Assembly: GCF_000373965.1 (NCBI RefSeq)
Contig: NZ_KB892835.1
Span: forward strand, 17,400-81,399
Reading direction: 5' to 3'
Origin: Uliginosibacterium gangwonense DSM 18521
Lineage (GTDB): Bacteria > Pseudomonadota > Gammaproteobacteria > Burkholderiales > Rhodocyclaceae
DNA length: 64,000 nucleotides
Notes under the pieces: generated by a model
The model's input: only the letters and a program-made list of their open reading frames with translations
Told to the model about the DNA's origin: nothing
Databases searched by the model: none
Shown here: positions 1 through 34,364 of the stretch, piece after piece
Position numbering within the stretch: position 1 is the first letter of the stretch
Layout: each line of letters starts with the position of its first letter
Made by a program: the position numbers and the translations under genes

Positions 1-112
1 CCCCCGCCACATTACCCCGGAAGAATTTCTGCGTGCGCATATGGATATCCTGCTCAATGGCTTGCTGACCGCGCCCCATAAAACATCATTGCCCATGGAG
101 CATTTCCGATGA
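1..112 (+). CDS. C-terminal end of a TetR-type transcriptional regulator (partial)
   Basis: An open frame enters from the left edge, with codons starting at base 2, and ends at TGA 110-112. The last 36 residues contain PEEFLRAHMDILLNGLL, which resembles the final helix of TetR-family repressors. The stop overlaps the start of the efflux adaptor gene as ATGA, so the two are translationally coupled. A TetR repressor at the head of an RND efflux operon is a very common arrangement. The DNA-binding half lies outside the window, so the family call rests on a short tail plus context. Confidence 0.55.
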   Translation, partial: PRHITPEEFLRAHMDILLNGLLTAPHKTSLPMEHFR

Positions 113-27018: not shown

Positions 27019-27426
27019 GGGTATCAGGTATGATCAGGGGGTATGCCGGGTGATGGGGCCGGTCCAGTTATATGCTCAGCAGGCCTCGGCGGCGGAGGCT
27101 GGTCCATGGGGACAGGAGCTTGCTGCGTGAAGATCCAAACGATGATCGAGTACAAAAAAGCTGCGGCAGCAGTCTGTTGAGGAGAGGTGTAACAGGCCAC
27201 TGCCGCCGCATCCAAGGCAGAAAGGGATGATTACATTTTCTCCACTCTGCATACGTTTGGCGATGCCAATAGCCGTTACTGCATTGTCCAGAGCCTAGAT
27301 TTTGCCACGTTTGCTTTTACCTGCCTTTACGTCACAACACGGTGAAGAAGCAAATGCGCTGCCACTATGATCACACACTATAGAATAATCTTTACTGGCA
27401 CCCATTGTGGTGGGAGGAGACGTGTC
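27019..27426 (+). other. Intergenic region between MATE and subtilisin genes
   Basis: This 408-base gap separates two divergent genes. TATAGAATAAT at about 27380-27390 is a plausible -10 region for the protease. GGGAGGAGA at about 27411-27419 is its ribosome site. No repeat, RNA gene or coding frame of normal character was recognised in the rest. A short frame on the minus strand (27024-27215) lacks coding signals. Confidence 0.4.
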
Positions 27427-29262
27427 ATGATAAGAAACCAGCATCTTGCCCAGCTAGCCCTGGCTGTGTGTCTGAGTGGGGCAGCGCTCTTGGCGCTACC
27501 GGCACATGCAGAGACCGGGCGGGTTATCGTCAAGTTCCGCAGCAGTTCCACGATTCAGGTTTTGAGCAGCGATTCGGCCCGGATTCAGGCCATGAGCGCG
27601 CAAACCGGCCTGAAGGTGTTGGCCAGCAATAATCTGATTGGGCGGATGCACGCGATGCGGGTGGATGGCATCAGTTCCAGTGAATTGGCCACCCGCTTGG
27701 CCGCGCGTGCTGATGTGGAGTATGCCGTCCCCGACGAGCGCCGATATATCCGTGCCGTGCCCAGTGACCCCGTGTATGCGCAACAGTGGTATCTGCAATC
27801 GACCAAGGCTTCGGCCATCAACGCGCAGTCCGCATGGGACAGCACCACCGGGAGCAGCAGCGTTGTGGTCGCAGTGCTGGATACCGGCATCCTACCCAAC
27901 CACCCGGACCTGACCAGTAAGCTGACCTATAACGGCAGCACGCTGTATGGCTACGATTTTGTCTCAAACGCAGAAGTCGCCAACGATGGAGATGGGCGTG
28001 ATGCCGATCCTTCCGACCCCGGTGACTGGGTGACGACGACCGAATCTACAACGACGTCTGGCATTTTTTTTGGCTGTACAGTGACGGATAGTACCTGGCA
28101 CGGTTCTATGGTGGCAGGTATCATCGGGGCCGCCAGCAACAACGCCCAAGGCGTGGCCGGGGTGGCCTGGGGCGCCAAGATTCTGCCGGTGCGGGTGATG
28201 GGCAAGTGCGGCGGCTATGATAGTGACATTCTGGCAGGCATGCTCTGGGCGGCAGGTTTATCCGTGAGCGGGGTGAGTACCAATATCTACCCGGCCAAGG
28301 TGATCAACATGAGCATCGGCGGCACGGGTACCTGCAATTCTGCCTATACGGATGTTGTCAAACAGGTAATCGTCGCTGGGAGTACGATTCTGGCCGCTGC
28401 AGGCAATGACGCAGGCAGTGTGGGGGTGCCTGCCAACTGCCCAGGGGTGGTGGCGGTGTCGGCGCTCAACAATACGGGGTCCAAAGCCTACTACAGCGAT
28501 TTCGGCTCTGCTGCGGGGATTGCTGCACCCGGCGGGGATTGCGGCAGCGCAACCACTTCGGCCACATGCGAATATCCTATCTATTCCACCAAGAATAGTG
28601 GCACAACCTCACCACAAACCGACAACTACTCGGTCGCCAGCGACGCCGAGCGCGGAACGAGTTTTGCCACACCGCTGGTAGCCGGGGTGGTGGCCTTGAT
28701 GCGTTCGGCCAATTCCTCGCTGACGCCTGCGCTCCTGGTAGCCCGACTCAAGGCCAGCGCTTCGGCCTTCCCCACCGTGACGGGCTTGCAGAGTTGCTCG
28801 GCTGTGGCTTCTGGCACACGGGTCGATTGCAACTGTACCACGAGCACCTGTGGCGCGGGGATGCTCAACGCCGCCAACGCGGTCAGCGCAGCACTGCGCC
28901 CCGTTGCGGTGATCACTGCCGCGAGCAGCGCCACGGCGGGAGATAGCCTCAGCCTGAGTAGTACAGGGAGTACCGTGGCAGATGGGCACACGATTGCCAG
29001 CTATTTGTGGACCACATCGGCAGGCTCGATCACCAATGCGACCCAGGCCAGCGCTACGCTGGCCGCGAGCATTGCCGGTACGGTGACAGTGACCCTGACG
29101 ATTACCGATGATGCCGGGAAAACCGATACCGCCAGCACAACCATTGCTGTGGCAGAGGCACCTAGTTCGGGTGGTGGCGGTGGCGCAATTGATGCCTGGA
29201 GTTTGCTGCTCCTGCTGGCCCTGGCTGGCGTGGTTTATTGTGGCCGAGCACTCCGGCGTTGA
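27427..29262 (+). CDS. Secreted subtilisin-family (S8) protease with GlyGly-CTERM-like tail
   Basis: From ATG 27427 the protein is 611 residues: signal peptide (ends AHA-ET), inhibitor-type propeptide (GRVIVKFRSS onward, to about 105), and catalytic domain. The triad is visible: Asp152 in VAVLDTGI, His225 in WHGSMVAG and Ser412 in GTSFATPLVAG. A PKD-like domain follows (about 497-580). A Ser/Gly stretch SSGGGGG then leads into one hydrophobic helix (WSLLLLLALAGVVY) and a basic end RALRR. That last part fits GlyGly-CTERM sorting tails, which a rhombosortase cleaves. Its convergent neighbour encodes just such an enzyme. An upstream in-frame ATG at 27367 is ignored because GGGAGGAGA serves 27427. 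Confidence 0.93.
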   Translation: MIRNQHLAQLALAVCLSGAALLALPAHAETGRVIVKFRSSSTIQVLSSDSARIQAMSAQTGLKVLASNNLIGRMHAMRVDGISSSELATRLAARADVEYAVPDERRYIRAVPSDPVYAQQWYLQSTKASAINAQSAWDSTTGSSSVVVAVLDTGILPNHPDLTSKLTYNGSTLYGYDFVSNAEVANDGDGRDADPSDPGDWVTTTESTTTSGIFFGCTVTDSTWHGSMVAGIIGAASNNAQGVAGVAWGAKILPVRVMGKCGGYDSDILAGMLWAAGLSVSGVSTNIYPAKVINMSIGGTGTCNSAYTDVVKQVIVAGSTILAAAGNDAGSVGVPANCPGVVAVSALNNTGSKAYYSDFGSAAGIAAPGGDCGSATTSATCEYPIYSTKNSGTTSPQTDNYSVASDAERGTSFATPLVAGVVALMRSANSSLTPALLVARLKASASAFPTVTGLQSCSAVASGTRVDCNCTTSTCGAGMLNAANAVSAALRPVAVITAASSATAGDSLSLSSTGSTVADGHTIASYLWTTSAGSITNATQASATLAASIAGTVTVTLTITDDAGKTDTASTTIAVAEAPSSGGGGGAIDAWSLLLLLALAGVVYCGRALRR

Positions 29263-29906
29263 TAGTGTGCGGATAGGGCTGTGCAGCAGGCAAAGCACAG
29301 CCCGCCCAGATAGCCATACAGATGGGCGCCCTGTGCCACACTGGCGTTAGCCAGGAGCATGCCTCCCCCGATGCCCAATAGCGCCTTGGCGCCGGTTCCA
29401 ACGCCGATGATGAAGGCCGTTAGCTTGAGGTGCCAGGAGTCCGCTTGCCGAACCGCTTCCAATGCCAGCCATACAAAGACGCCATACAGGGCGCCAGACA
29501 TGCCCACATACCAGCTCAGGGGCGGGGTTTCCATCTGCAGACCAAGGCCTACCGCTACGGCACTCGTCAGCAGGGCGCCGGGCAGGCGGCTCAGGCTGTG
29601 CAGGTATCCGGCAATAAGGGCTGCGCCAAGCAAGGCCGCCAGATTCATGAGCAGGTGAGGCGTATTCAAATGAACGCATTGCGCAGGCAATGCACGCCAT
29701 AGCGCATCGTTTGCCGGGTGATAATAGAGCATGTGCCCCCAGGCGGGATAGACACCCAGCGCCACGACTGCAATGACCAGCGCAGCCACAAAGCCGCCCG
29801 CAAGCCATGTCATGGCGTGTTGGCAGCGGCTGACGCGGGGCGGTGGAAGCTGCATGGGGCATCCGGCAAATGGGGCAAGCGCCGTTTGGCGCGTTGCCCC
29901 TAGCAT
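29235..29906 (-). CDS. Rhombosortase (rhomboid-family intramembrane sorting protease)
   Basis: The 223-residue protein has six hydrophobic helices and rhomboid catalytic residues. VHLNTPHLLMNLAALLGA (His84, Asn88) forms the oxyanion region. VGMSGALYG carries Ser137, and GAHLYGYLGG carries His195. Small six-helix rhomboids of this form are rhombosortases, which process GlyGly-CTERM proteins. The last 28 bases overlap the end of the subtilisin gene on the other strand, and that protease carries such a tail. The start is unsure: ATG 29906 lies 3 bases after creD, while 29855 gives a more usual length. Either way it probably shares the creD transcript. Confidence 0.85.
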   Translation of the reverse strand: MLGATRQTALAPFAGCPMQLPPPRVSRCQHAMTWLAGGFVAALVIAVVALGVYPAWGHMLYYHPANDALWRALPAQCVHLNTPHLLMNLAALLGAALIAGYLHSLSRLPGALLTSAVAVGLGLQMETPPLSWYVGMSGALYGVFVWLALEAVRQADSWHLKLTAFIIGVGTGAKALLGIGGGMLLANASVAQGAHLYGYLGGLCFACCTALSAHYQRRSARPQ

Positions 29907-29909
29907 ACA

Positions 29910-31259
29910 TCACTGATCGGATGGCGTCTGACTGTGTACAGCCAGCAAGGCATGCCAGTCGACCTTGCGGGTGCCGACCATCACGCAGGCCAGTAGGCCG
30001 AACAGCAGCAGGCTGCCCATGAGCAGGGCATTCTGTTCCGAGAGCAGGATCACATATAGGGCGCCATACAGGCTGCCCAGGCCCAAGGTAAAGCCCGCCG
30101 CCAGCCACGTACTACGCAACAGATTTGCGCTATAGAAGCCGATCAGCAACACGCAGGCACTGGCGGCAGCCAGATAGGCGGGGCCAAAACCGATGTGCTC
30201 AGATAAAGACAACAGCATGACAAAGAAGATCAGCAGTGCCGCCCCGATTAACAGGTAATTCATGGGGTGCAGTTGCAGATTGCGCAGCAGTTCAAAGAGC
30301 AGGAAGGCGCCAAGCGTGAGCGTGATGAACAATTCAGCATATTTGCTGGCGCGGTCAGACATCGAATAAATATCCACCGGGTCGATCATGGTGACGCCAA
30401 AGCTATCCACTGCGCTGCTGATCTGCCCCGACTGTGTGCCGCGCCAGGTTTGGCGTGCATTCGAAGCCAGTGCGTTGATGTTCCATTCCGCCTCGAAACC
30501 ATTTGCGCTCACCTGCCGTGCCACGGGCAGGAAGCGCCCATTGAAGGAAGGGTGTGGCCAGTGTGAATTGAGGTTGGCATAGGTTTCACGCGCCAACGGG
30601 ACTATGCTGAAGTCATCCGTTCCCGCCAGTTGCAGATCCAGCACTGCATTCAATGTCTGCCCGAATTTCTGCGTCGGGTTGGGGATTTCCGCCTGTGCGC
30701 CATTGCCATCCGGTTTGGTTCCCGTTCCAGACTCCATGCGCAGGGCCTGATCGCCGAGCTTCAAATCCAGTTTGCGCAGGCCGCGCGGATCGCTGACGGC
30801 GAGGATCAGGCGGGCATGCTCCACCGTAACGGTGGCCCCTGCTTTGCTGCGTGGCAATTCTTCCAGCGTCGGCATTTTCAGGGTGCTGGTGAGCTTGCCT
30901 GAAAGCAGATAGGTATTGACGTGAAAGATGCCTCGGTAGCGTGTGTCATTGTTCAGCGTACCGGTGAGTCGGGCTGTCTCCGGCAATATGATCGTCTGGC
31001 CGGGGATGGTATTTTGCTCCTCCCGTAAAACGCTTCCGTCATTGCGCAGGATTGGTGTGGCATAGTGCTCGGTGTAATCGACCACGAGCGCCAAGCCTGC
31101 AATGGTCTGGCTGTCTGCCAGACTCTCGGCAATCGAGTGGCTGGCCTGATTGCGGTTAGCAATGCGGTCACTGACCACGCCCCGCACGAAAATCCCCGCC
31201 GTCATCAACACCCCGACCACTACGATGATGACCAGCATCTTGTAGAGAAAACCACGCAT
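29910..31259 (-). CDS. creD: Inner-membrane protein CreD
   Basis: The 449-residue protein has an N-terminal membrane helix, a long periplasmic beta-rich part (about 35-310), and five or six C-terminal helices. YHVNTYLLSGKL-like and LNVQLVG-type CreD motifs appear here as FHVNTYLLSGKL and LDLQLAGTDDFSIVPLARET; the helices begin EYAELFITLTLGAFLLFEL. CreD is the main output of the CreBC two-component system and affects envelope stress and beta-lactam or colicin tolerance in other bacteria. creB, creC and an isoprenyl transferase are nearby. A CreB-type site lies upstream at 31306-31332. Confidence 0.93.
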   Translation of the reverse strand: MRGFLYKMLVIIVVVGVLMTAGIFVRGVVSDRIANRNQASHSIAESLADSQTIAGLALVVDYTEHYATPILRNDGSVLREEQNTIPGQTIILPETARLTGTLNNDTRYRGIFHVNTYLLSGKLTSTLKMPTLEELPRSKAGATVTVEHARLILAVSDPRGLRKLDLKLGDQALRMESGTGTKPDGNGAQAEIPNPTQKFGQTLNAVLDLQLAGTDDFSIVPLARETYANLNSHWPHPSFNGRFLPVARQVSANGFEAEWNINALASNARQTWRGTQSGQISSAVDSFGVTMIDPVDIYSMSDRASKYAELFITLTLGAFLLFELLRNLQLHPMNYLLIGAALLIFFVMLLSLSEHIGFGPAYLAAASACVLLIGFYSANLLRSTWLAAGFTLGLGSLYGALYVILLSEQNALLMGSLLLFGLLACVMVGTRKVDWHALLAVHSQTPSDQ

Positions 31260-31305
31260 CTGAATACTCCCTGATATAAAGGTGGGAGCATCATGCTGCG
31301 TGGGT

Positions 31306-31332
31306 GTGAGGAGAAAATGATGTGTGGGTGAA
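31306..31332 (-). promoter_or_regulatory. CreB half-site array before creD
   Basis: On the minus strand TTCAC (31332-31328), ATCAT (31321-31317) and CTCAC (31310-31306) lie exactly 11 bp apart. The known CreB binding tag is a TTCAC direct repeat with a 6-base spacer, which is also an 11-bp period. The array starts 47 bases upstream of the creD ATG. Only one half-site is perfect. Confidence 0.6.
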
Positions 31333-31365
31333 GCTGCTTTTCACACAGAGTGTGACGTGCATGGC

Positions 31366-32148
31366 TCAGCCCACCATGCGTTTTTCCTTGATCTGCTCAC
31401 TAGTGCGGCCAAAGCGCCGTTCCCGCCGTTGGAATGAGGCAATGGCCAGATCAAAAGCCGCCTCGTCAAATTCAGGCCACAGGCAATCGGTGAAATAGAA
31501 TTCGGTGTATGCCAACTGCCAGAGCAGGAAGTTGCTCACGCGCTGCTCGCCGCCGGTGCGGATGAACAGATCCGGCTCGGGCAGGTCCGCCAGACACAGA
31601 TGGGGGCGTAAATCCTCTTCGGTGAAGTCACCGTGCCTGTCCGGCTCGGTTGCAACCATGTGGTTGACGGCCTGCATCAAATCCCAGCGCCCGCCGTAAT
31701 TGGCGGCAATCGACAGGTTGAGCGCCGTGTTGCCAGCCGTCAGCGCCTCGGCCTCCGCAATGGCAGCCTGGAGTTCCGGCGCGAAGCGCGAGGTCTCACC
31801 TATCACCCGCAGGCGGATGTGGTGCTTGTGCAGCAGCTTCACTTCTTCACGCAAGGCGCGCATGAAAAGCTGCATCAGGAAGCTGACTTCATCGGCAGGG
31901 CGACGCCAGTTTTCGGAACTGAACGCGAACAGAGTCAGATTCGGCACCCCGCGTTCAATGCACAGTTGCACCATACGGCGCACGGTTTCCAACCCCCGCT
32001 TGTGCCCGGCTACCCGTGGCATCAGGCGTTTGCTAGCCCAGCGCCCATTGCCATCCATGACGATGGCAATATGGTTGGGGAATTCGGAATGCGTGGGAAT
32101 TTCCTGTGTGGAACTGACAGGGGCAGGTGAGCGCAAAAAGCCAAACAT
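31366..32148 (-). CDS. uppS: Isoprenyl (undecaprenyl) diphosphate synthase
   Basis: The 260-residue cis-prenyltransferase condenses farnesyl diphosphate with isopentenyl diphosphate to make the C55 wall-carrier lipid. Catalytic Asp32 is in IVMDGNGRWA. SSENWRRP at about 104-111 and DLFIRTGGEQRVSNFLLWQ at about 198-216 bind substrate. The start at 32148 follows AGGAG by 7 bases. In most proteobacteria uppS lies in the pyrH-frr-uppS-cdsA cluster; this one stands between creC and creD. It may be a second copy or have a different chain length. A CreB-type array precedes it. Confidence 0.92.
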   Translation of the reverse strand: MFGFLRSPAPVSSTQEIPTHSEFPNHIAIVMDGNGRWASKRLMPRVAGHKRGLETVRRMVQLCIERGVPNLTLFAFSSENWRRPADEVSFLMQLFMRALREEVKLLHKHHIRLRVIGETSRFAPELQAAIAEAEALTAGNTALNLSIAANYGGRWDLMQAVNHMVATEPDRHGDFTEEDLRPHLCLADLPEPDLFIRTGGEQRVSNFLLWQLAYTEFYFTDCLWPEFDEAAFDLAIASFQRRERRFGRTSEQIKEKRMVG

Positions 32149-32195
32149 CGGGCATCTCCTCAGCAATCAAGATGCCTTGAGAATGCGACCGGGGC

Positions 32196-32233
32196 GTGAG
32201 GGGGAAATGAGTGCTTTGTGAAGGGAGTGTGAA
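32196..32233 (-). promoter_or_regulatory. CreB binding array before uppS
   Basis: Read on the minus strand: TTCAC, ACTCCC, TTCAC, AAAGCA, CTCAT, TTCCCC, CTCAC. The first two form a perfect CreB tag TTCAC-N6-TTCAC (32233-32218). Two weaker half-sites extend it at the same 11-bp step (32211-32207 and 32200-32196). It lies 48-85 bases before uppS, right after creC. Confidence 0.85.
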
Positions 32234-32241
32234 GTGAGACC

Positions 32242-33678
32242 CTAAATGAATCGGGCGGGCAGGCGCAGGGTGGCGAGTGCTCCGCCTTCCGGGTGATTGC
32301 CCAGGGTCAGGCTACCGTGGTGGAGGCGGGCGACTTCGTGGGCGATGGCCAGCCCCAGGCCGGAGCCCTTGCTGCCATCGGGGCGGGGCAGACCGTAGAA
32401 GCGTTCACACAGATGGGGTAGGGCATAGTCGGGAATGCCAGCGCCATGGTCGCGGATGCCGATGCTCACCCAGCCGGGTTCGTGGCTCACGTTCAGGGCG
32501 ATGGTGCTGCCTGTCGGGGCATGGTCTAGGGCGTTATCCAGCAGGTTCCCCAGCGCCAGCATCAGGCGTTCCTTGTCCCCCTTGAGCGGAGTGCTGCGGG
32601 TGGGCAACTCGCAGATAAGTTCAATCCCCTGTGCATCGGCACGGCCCTGCCGGGCGAGGCTTAACTCCTGTACGAGTTCGCAGGCATCCAGACGCTTGAA
32701 GGCTTCCAGCCCACGGCCGGATTCCAGCCGGGAGAGTTCCAGCATGCGGTCCACGCAATGCGTCATGCGCTGGCTCTGCGTCAGCACATGCTGGGCGAAT
32801 TGGCGTCGCTCGGTGTCTGGCAGAGAGGGCTCAGCCAGGATTTCGCCCGCGCCGCGCAGTGCCGCCAGCGGACTTTTGAGTTCGTGGGTGAGCGCCTGCA
32901 CCGTCTGCTCGATGTACTGCTTGCCTTCGAGCTTTTCACGCATCGCGGCCATGGCCCGGGCCAGATCGGAGAGTTCCTGTCCGCCGCCGGTGGGTGGGGT
33001 GGCAGGCTCACCCGCCGCCACGGCCTGGGCATAGTTGCGCAGGCGGCGGATAGAGCCGGTGAGCCACAGCGTTACCGCCAAGCCGATCAGGGCCGAGCCG
33101 CCGAGCAGCCAGATGCCGTGGCGCAGGATGGTCTGCTCGCTGCGGGTGATGATGGGCTGCACGGTGCGTGCTGGCTTGGCCAGGGTCAGCACGCCGATGA
33201 TGCGATTGTCACTGCGAATCGGGGCTGCGACGTAGAACACCGAGCTGCTGTCATCCTCGGGGTCTTCGCGCGTGGCACGGGCGCCATATTCGCCACGCAG
33301 GGTGAGGGAGACGTCCCGCCAGTGCGAATAGTCTGCGCCTTCGGCCTTGTGTTCGGAGTCGAAACGGACTATACCTTTGTCATCGGTGATAGTGACGCGG
33401 AAATCCAGCGTGCTTTTGCGGAAGTGCCAGATCGGCGCATCTACGCTGCCCTTGCGATAGGCTTCCATCTGCTGGGCAAAGCGCCCGTTGGCAATATGCC
33501 CTTCGCGTAGATCATCGGTTGCTAGCACGGCCAGGATGTTGGCCGTGTCGACCATGGTCTCTTCAATGCTCTCGCGCACGCTGGGGCGCACTTCACCCAC
33601 AAAGATGCGCAGCACGAAGAAGGCGGCAAGCCCCACCACCAGGAAGTATCCCAGCAGTACGCGCAGCGGCAGATTCAT
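32242..33678 (-). CDS. creC: Sensor histidine kinase CreC
   Basis: The 478-residue kinase has two membrane helices (about residues 9-25 and 188-207) bracketing a periplasmic sensor of about 160 residues. A HAMP linker follows, then the phospho-acceptor His265 in ALTHELKSPLAAL. The ATPase boxes are NLLDNALDHAP (N), IRDHGAGIPD (G1) and GSGLGLAIAHEV (G2). The start overlaps creB's stop by ATGA, so the two are translated together. CreC homologues respond to metabolic state or to loss of a D,D-peptidase, depending on the organism. The sensor ligand is unknown here. Confidence 0.94.
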   Translation of the reverse strand: MNLPLRVLLGYFLVVGLAAFFVLRIFVGEVRPSVRESIEETMVDTANILAVLATDDLREGHIANGRFAQQMEAYRKGSVDAPIWHFRKSTLDFRVTITDDKGIVRFDSEHKAEGADYSHWRDVSLTLRGEYGARATREDPEDDSSSVFYVAAPIRSDNRIIGVLTLAKPARTVQPIITRSEQTILRHGIWLLGGSALIGLAVTLWLTGSIRRLRNYAQAVAAGEPATPPTGGGQELSDLARAMAAMREKLEGKQYIEQTVQALTHELKSPLAALRGAGEILAEPSLPDTERRQFAQHVLTQSQRMTHCVDRMLELSRLESGRGLEAFKRLDACELVQELSLARQGRADAQGIELICELPTRSTPLKGDKERLMLALGNLLDNALDHAPTGSTIALNVSHEPGWVSIGIRDHGAGIPDYALPHLCERFYGLPRPDGSKGSGLGLAIAHEVARLHHGSLTLGNHPEGGALATLRLPARFI

Positions 33679-34364
33679 GGGCTGAGCGAGTAGCCCATGC
33701 CGCGATGGGTCTGGATTGGGTCGAGTTCGGGTGACACCGCGCGCAGCTTGGCGCGCAGGGTCTTGATGTGGGTATCCACCGTGCGGTCGGTGCTGTCGCT
33801 ATCATGTCCCCACACCGCGTCCAGCAACTGGTTGCGTGAAAACACCCGGCCCGGCGAGAGCAGCAGGTGGCACAGCAGCAGATACTCATAGCGCGTTAAT
33901 GGCAGGGCGATGCCGTTGTGGCGAATCTGCGCGGCTGCTTCATCCAGCATCAGGGCATCGCTGCTCGCACCATTGGGTGCCGGGGCTGGGGGGCTGGCGC
34001 GGCGCAGCATCACCCGCAGGCGGGCGGCGACTTCACGTGGGCTGAAAGGCTTGGCGACATAATCGTCCGCCCCGATCTCAAAGCCCAGCACGCGGTCAAT
34101 CTCCTCGCTGCGGGCGGTGAGGAACATCACCGGCAGACTGGTATCGTGGGCACGGATGCGGCGGCAGACCTCGAAGCCGGACAAGTCCGGCAGCCCCACA
34201 TCCAGTACCACCACGGATACATCACCTGCCTGCAAGCGCTCCAGCGCAGCGTGACCAGTGGCCACATGGCAGGGGGAAAAGCCTTCGCTCTTGAGCGTCC
34301 ACGTCAGCGTATCGGCAATCGCCGGTTCGTCTTCAACGAGGAGGATGACGGGACGCTCAGTCAC
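33675..34364 (-). CDS. creB: OmpR-type response regulator CreB
   Basis: The 229-residue regulator has a receiver domain with phospho-acceptor Asp55 (VVVLDVGLPD), acidic pocket EDE at 11-13 and Lys near 105 (YVAKPFSP). The C-terminal winged helix contains LTRYEYLLLCHLLLSPGRVFS and the recognition part STDRTVDTHIKTLRAKL. The sequence is CreB-like and creC and creD are adjacent. It begins 9 bases after the gatB stop, so it may ride on the gatB transcript. It should bind the TTCAC arrays before uppS and creD. Confidence 0.94.
   Translation of the reverse strand: MTERPVILLVEDEPAIADTLTWTLKSEGFSPCHVATGHAALERLQAGDVSVVVLDVGLPDLSGFEVCRRIRAHDTSLPVMFLTARSEEIDRVLGFEIGADDYVAKPFSPREVAARLRVMLRRASPPAPAPNGASSDALMLDEAAAQIRHNGIALPLTRYEYLLLCHLLLSPGRVFSRNQLLDAVWGHDSDSTDRTVDTHIKTLRAKLRAVSPELDPIQTHRGMGYSLSP

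Follow-up and report, generated by a model that had tools for sequence, protein, structure and literature searches.

Sites of PhoB-family response regulators commonly share a layout of direct repeats with an 11-bp period. The pho box itself, CTGTCAT with an AT-rich spacer, has this period and also occurs in multi-box promoters. At sites overlapping the -35 region, the effector domains of PhoB occupy tandem direct repeats head to tail, according to the available part of one report (PMC3348028). For CreB of Escherichia coli and BlrA of Aeromonas, the accessible portions of two papers give the cre/blr tag as a single pair, TTCAC-N6-TTCAC (PMC4689548, PMC3660660). A literature search on CreB with direct repeats or TTCAC, or with a DAP-seq binding motif, found no paper; the primary E. 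coli and Aeromonas tag papers may already report sites past the pair or their spacing to the -10, and priority for further half-sites beyond the pair is uncertain.

CreBC is an envelope-stress system of many Gram-negative bacteria, and its signal is disputed. The idea that it answers a shortage of the undecaprenyl carrier has so far been based, in the accessible parts of two reports, on the induction of creD and cbrABC in E. coli by colicin M, which cleaves lipid II and frees undecaprenol (PMC3599342), and on glycan-blocked Burkholderia cenocepacia, where CreD rises more than 30-fold once the carrier pool is fouled and the growth defect is partly relieved by additional UppS (for one of the two UppS, in just one of the two mutants; PMC12152626). 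The authors of the latter work, in the same portion of their text, already proposed a role for CreD in Und-P/Und-PP recycling (PMC12152626). A single carrier signal is nevertheless disfavoured because, in the sections available, CreBC of Salmonella is reported to sense pyruvate and lactate (PMC7873081) and creD expression in S. maltophilia is reported as a poor indicator of CreBC activation (PMC4689548). Salmonella CreB is also reported there to bind vrpB, a promoter without a typical cre tag (PMC7873081). Literature on creBC or creD together with undecaprenyl pyrophosphate synthase or undecaprenyl phosphate describes, in its accessible portions, no uppS in a cre locus.

The cre locus and its half-site arrays

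We analysed a stretch of 64,000 nucleotides of Uliginosibacterium gangwonense DSM 18521, hereafter the window, whose minus strand carries the gene order creB-creC-uppS-creD, with uppS intervening between creC and creD:

33675..34364, minus strand: creB, PhoB-family response regulator (NCBIfam NF008296 CreB, 337.5 bits, cut-off 273; Pfam Response_reg and Trans_reg_C)
32242..33678, minus strand: creC, sensor histidine kinase (NCBIfam NF008312 CreC, 600.1 bits, cut-off 356)
31366..32148, minus strand: uppS paralogue, second undecaprenyl diphosphate synthase (Pfam Prenyltransf, 1.5e-83; TIGR00055, 284.3 bits, cut-off 109.55)
29910..31259, minus strand: creD, inner membrane protein (NCBIfam NF008712 CreD, 447.7 bits, cut-off 275)

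The NCBIfam equivalogs CreB, CreC and CreD each score above cut-off, as a CreBC(D) regulatory locus should, and the second-best NCBIfam model for the window CreB is PhoB. Just past creD, 3 bp beyond its stop codon, begins a rhombosortase-like gene (29235-29906, minus strand; 83.3 bits, cut-off 84), which may be on a common transcript with creD. Convergent with it lies the gene of an S8-type serine protease (27367-29262, plus strand) with a GGGGG... tail, noted by eye, that resembles a GlyGly-CTERM signal. No relative of the window rhombosortase was found in the ~1 kb that follows creD in related genomes (20 stretches and 5 shorter creD loci).

Upstream of both uppS and creD, short half-sites recur on the minus strand:

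32229..32233, minus strand: predicted uppS operator half-site 1, TTCAC, distal, by sequence and 11-bp run
32218..32222, minus strand: predicted uppS operator half-site 2, TTCAC, by sequence and 11-bp run
32207..32211, minus strand: predicted uppS operator half-site 3, CTCAT, by sequence (CTCAT likewise in G002, G003, G006, G007 and G019)
32196..32200, minus strand: predicted uppS operator half-site 4, CTCAC, where the -35 box would be, by sequence and alignment (counterparts in aligned relatives CTCAT, CTCAA, CTCAC or CCCAC)
32180..32185, minus strand: uppS -10-like hexamer CATTCT, by eye, 10 bp past half-site 4 (equal distance in seven aligned promoters)
31328..31332, minus strand: predicted creD operator half-site, TTCAC, by sequence and 11-bp run
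31317..31321, minus strand: predicted creD operator half-site, ATCAT, by sequence and 11-bp run
31306..31310, minus strand: predicted creD operator half-site, CTCAC, where the -35 box would be, by sequence and 11-bp run
31290..31295, minus strand: creD -10-like hexamer CATGAT, by eye, 10 bp past the last creD half-site

The preliminary description of this DNA had read these half-sites at exact 11-bp steps, from 32233 to 32196 before uppS and from 31332 to 31306 before creD, and the sequence confirms both runs. Its mention of four-fold arrays holds for uppS; creD has three half-sites, one being ATCAT, and the position one unit upstream (31343-31339) reads TGAAA. The exact tag is thus present before uppS (32233-32218), and creD lacks it, reading TTCAC-N6-ATCAT-N6-CTCAC. 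At both genes a CATNNT -10-like hexamer follows the last half-site at exactly 10 bp. A promoter scan found no sigma-70-type promoter on the minus strand between 31200 and 32300 of the window, which is expected if an activator substitutes for the -35 contact. A PhoB-type multi-box promoter is defined by 11-bp repeats running up to a fixed distance from the -10, with no good -35, and judged by sequence the layout here is of that kind. We consider it about 75% probable that the two arrays serve as operators for the CreB encoded next to them, laid out like tandem pho boxes and activating uppS and creD.

Could a TC-rich stretch have produced such TCA repeats by chance? The exact tag alone is common, with six occurrences in the genome and four in the reversed control, and tag pairs with up to two mismatches, tried as a regulon scan of the window, came at chance level (43, 41.35 expected) and were dropped. 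The longer runs behave differently, bearing in mind that the half-site definition was derived post hoc from the finding itself. Within the 64 kb, runs of at least three [ACT]TCA[CT] at step 11 are confined to the uppS and creD arrays, and all steps from 6 to 20 add one further run of three, at step 7. When the 93 bp between creC and uppS were dinucleotide-shuffled, 0 of 20,000 replicates reached four YTCAY at step 11; when the 106 bp that precede creD were shuffled, three [ACT]TCA[CT] at step 11 appeared in 0.135% of replicates, and a run of three at any step from 6 to 20 in 1.3% of 3,000. Across the 5.02-Mb genome, YTCAY occurs four times at 11-bp steps once, in the uppS array (reversed control 0), and three times solely within the same array (control 0). 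Genome-wide counts, shuffles and the genus pattern search below, together with the conservation of the register in relatives, reject chance or base composition as an explanation, and we give it next to no weight.

None of the five remaining exact tags in this genome extends into a run of three YTCAY with an 11-bp step. At one of them (L065, G000:C31:210568-210583, minus strand), TTCAC stands at 0, 11 and 21 behind ispD/ispF-like ORFs named by eye, with its first base 99 bp before a gene for a YdjM-family membrane protein. This gene has no match in the other seven genus genomes; the array is a possible candidate for a further Cre target.

Conservation of the register in other creD promoters

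Orthologous loci provide additional clues. Among the 101 genomes searched, that of the window included, 26 have creD; within the genus it is found in five of eight genomes, and the identical five have a creC match at E<=1e-80. The pattern TTCAY-N6-TTCAY-N6-YTCAY has four matches in the eight genus genomes (reversed control 0), namely the promoters of creD in G002 and G007 and of uppS in G003 and the window, and none in G001, G004 and G005, all of which lack creD as well as any creC match at E<=1e-80. Genome G006, in which creBCD is present, escapes the pattern because the third unit of its array is CACAC. These results also bear on whether another PhoB-family regulator, PhoB or a paralogue, binds the arrays in place of CreB, as the 11-bp direct-repeat layout common to the family and three further response regulators of the window genome matching CreB at E<=1e-40 might suggest. 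However, the genus pattern is restricted to genomes in which both creD and a creC match are present, and there lies only before creD or cre-linked uppS, and TTCAC-N6-TTCAC is the published Cre tag in the available parts of the literature (PMC4689548, PMC3660660), which makes a different regulator very improbable.

Seven promoters were aligned at the last half-site and the -10: window uppS, window creD, G003 uppS, and creD of G002, G006, G007 and G019. The five relatives were picked by eye for visible arrays from the 25 relatives with creD, and G014 (L035), also with in-register units, was left out. Because promoters were picked and anchored by eye, agreement at the anchors is circular, and the outer half-sites are the test. 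Register and the 10-bp distance to the -10 are retained and the spacers have diverged, with pairs agreeing at 15 to 26 of 26 half-site and -10 letters and at 14 to 36 of 48 spacer letters; agreement with the other six is lowest for the creD promoter of the window (15 to 20 of 26). The creD array of G006 has six units (TTCAC TTCAC CACAC CTCAC CTCAT CTCAC) and that of G019 five (TTCAC TTCAC CACAT CTCAT CCCAC), so that the strong pair lies two units further out in the former and one in the latter, and in-register half-sites continue to 10 bp before the -10. The preliminary description had proposed scanning relatives for arrays before uppS and creD; the 11-bp register is kept in the five relatives aligned, and loss of conservation, the outcome that would have spoken against it, was not seen.

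A more diverse set comprised 105 creD upstream regions (80 named loci, 23 relatives, E. coli and the window), with creD starts extrapolated from protein alignment rather than annotated. Left out were G007, identical to locus L067, a partial second match in G024, and G003, whose creD shows two frames and is not preceded by a pair. TTCA-N7-TTCA lies within 350 bp in 65 of the 105 regions; the 40 without it include window creD and all seven Pseudomonas-named loci. Of the 65, 63 have the pair 50-130 bp ahead of the start, and removal of similar sequences left 40 promoters with <70% identity to one another; offsets were counted from the pair's first base; shuffles were mononucleotide, with base composition only preserved. 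Y[TC]CAY stands at +20-22 in 18 of the 40 promoters and at +31-33 in 21 (~1.9 expected at each), one unit further there is a smaller rise at +42-44 (8/40), and the remaining counts are 2 at +34-36, 1 at +37-39 and 4 at +45-47. At least one of +20-22 and +31-33 is filled in 31 promoters (shuffle mean 3.57) and both, under the strict definition, in 8 (shuffle mean 0.07). The -10-like YANNNT peaks at +48, with 13 of 40 where 1.04 are expected and where the maximum at any offset in 1000 shuffles is 8. Lesser rises occur at +59 (5/40), one unit past the peak, and at +24 (6/40) and +33 (5/40), neither of these two being explained by the array layout. In E. coli, the creD promoter reads TTCAC, TTCAC, TTCAA, CCCAC (steps 11, 10, 11), N10, TATCCT.

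In an alternative scenario the CreB site is the distal TTCAC pair alone, as in the published tag, and the proximal look-alikes are -35-region promoter sequence that happens to resemble the motif. The proximal half-sites are indeed degenerate, and the cbrA and cbrB promoters of E. coli contain a single pair, followed by N10 and TAGTCT or TAAATT (-10s by eye), which on their sequence are a two-half-site version of the array. Yet the half-sites of the 40 creD promoters concentrate at the two in-register positions, with none at +17-19, +23-25 or +26-28; the sigma-70-type scan gave no promoter on the minus strand of the window between 31200 and 32300; and in G006 and G019 the half-sites still reach 10 bp before the -10 with the strong pair further out. 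We therefore regard a pair-only site as unlikely. From the extra positions across the 40 creD promoters we infer that the cre tag probably forms just the distal portion of an extended PhoB-like operator, in which degenerate proximal half-sites would replace the -35 box. That half-sites extend past the two-site tag in one register, as first proposed from the window, is upheld by the aligned relatives, the genus pattern search and the 40 creD promoters alike.

Across 399 genomes of the order, TTCAC-N6-TTCAC-N6-YTCAY was found at 43 places in 26 genomes, against 16 in 9 genomes for the control (hand count), and creD lies near 2 of 29 loci (L160-L188) from this search. Given the control count and the rarity of creD nearby, the three-half-site pattern is by itself not diagnostic of a CreB site outside the genus. 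Seven genomes of one family, f16 (G204, G241, G271, G330, G387, G414, G439), carry mostly AT-rich arrays with 11-bp steps, for example TTCACATATTATTCACATATTATTCAC, at up to six places per genome among the matches listed. No creD was found in the f16 loci checked, and L179 has weak response-regulator and kinase matches.

The second uppS as a candidate cre target

The window uppS is 80% identical to the other genomic copy, which lies on a separate contig, flanked by frr-like and cdsA-like ORFs and with pyrH-like and dxr-like ORFs nearby (named by eye). Its product is a predicted undecaprenyl diphosphate synthase paralogue: motifs common to six aligned UppS are retained, e.g. MDGNGRWA and RTGGEQR-SNFLLWQ, and the Prenyltransf domain and TIGR00055 are passed, with the narrower NF007596 below cut-off (302.6 vs 418). 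A second uppS is found in two of the eight genomes of the genus, that of the window and G003; each time it stands immediately ahead of creD and is preceded by an array of four half-sites. The uppS-creD pair of G003 is on a different contig from its creBC-like pair (58% and 38% identical). In the tree, the cre-linked UppS proteins of the two genomes fall together with support of 93/89 (below the tree program's star), and from this grouping a single duplication behind both appears likely. Compared with the creD promoters of G002 and G007, the window uppS promoter agrees in 24 of 26 letters and the window's own creD promoter in 19 of 26; as the uppS promoter is the nearer of the two, uppS may have slipped in behind the ancestral creD promoter, with creD now on a weaker, perhaps newer one.

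The presence of uppS in a cre locus is rare. The flanks (up to 5 kb) of the 80 named creD loci contain none, and the relatives, covered by 20 stretches and 5 shorter creD loci, supply one case, G003. Both cre-linked uppS have the pair TTCA-N7-TTCA within 1.5 kb upstream, and it was found before 0 of 16 other uppS matches; over the same distance, none of the 8 uppS matches in 7 further creD genomes has it, one of these 8 having an internal stop.

Two further features of G003 deserve mention. Its creD (L036 4964-6296) is split into two overlapping frames, the frameshift being either in the gene itself or in the 89%-complete assembly. On contig C53 (L199 346-2474, 2502-3968), after the creBC-like pair, we noted by eye an array that reads TTCAC, TTCAC, one poor unit, TTCAA and CCCAC, then ten bases and AATCCT, and which precedes a gene for a marine proteobacterial sortase target-like protein (below cut-off); an XrtQ exosortase (above cut-off) also lies behind it. 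This is a putative Cre-type operator ahead of a protein-sorting operon.

A proposed operator model and its relation to known systems

In the model that we put forward, monomers of phosphorylated CreB would line up head to tail, each on one 11-bp unit, with the strong distal TTCAC pair occupied first. CreB on this pair would help more CreB onto the degenerate proximal half-sites (CTCAT, CTCAC), which stand where a -35 box belongs, 10 bp before a poor -10 hexamer. There CreB would sit beside sigma, the monomers nearest the -10 in contact with it, and RNA polymerase would be recruited. If CreB occupies both operators, CreBC activation would thus raise the second UppS along with CreD, the benefit being more undecaprenyl carrier during envelope stress. 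Binding, cooperativity, order of occupancy, activation and benefit are all steps that we infer from the DNA sequence; cooperative binding, already suggested in the preliminary description, is plausible from the contiguity and phase of the half-sites. Against the model stand the failure of the genus pattern to capture G006, the 40 of 105 creD upstream regions that are pairless, the three half-sites only of window creD, the small share of the 40 creD promoters (8) in which both extra positions are filled, the two half-sites only of E. coli cbrA and cbrB, and the reported binding of Salmonella CreB to vrpB.

The existence of a cre-linked second UppS fits a CreBC that answers undecaprenyl-carrier stress. 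Tentatively, and with more doubt than belief, we extend this to a CreB operator of general occurrence, with two to six head-to-tail half-sites of which the known tag is just the distal part, and with a length that grows by 11 bp (in some cases 10 bp) per unit outward from a fixed point 10 bp ahead of the -10. CreBC would on this reading be in essence a response to undecaprenyl-carrier shortage, into which this lineage has wired a second UppS of its own. The arrays would make of the two-site tag a testable operator grammar of 11-bp units at a fixed 10 bp to the -10, and a CreB-controlled UppS, if true, would be a direct genetic handle on whether CreBC senses or repairs carrier shortage.

Compared with pho boxes, in the available description of PhoB, the window arrays are likewise direct repeats in the -35 place, and the second-best NCBIfam model of their presumed regulator is PhoB. 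In contrast, their half-site is TTCAC with a GC-rich spacer rather than CTGTCAT with an AT-rich one. With the cre/blr tag they share the half-site, the 11-bp period and the location before genes beside creBC. Unlike the pair described in the accessible portions of the tag literature, the window has four (uppS) or three (creD) in-register half-sites, the proximal ones degenerate and the last 10 bp from the -10. In B. cenocepacia, as far as the available text goes, CreD and UppS are both tied to the undecaprenyl carrier pool, as would be the case here. However, whereas the locus tags of the two putative UppS genes of that species (BCAL2087, BCAM2067) are distant from that of creD (BCAM1996), the window uppS stands between creC and creD, behind a CreB-type array.
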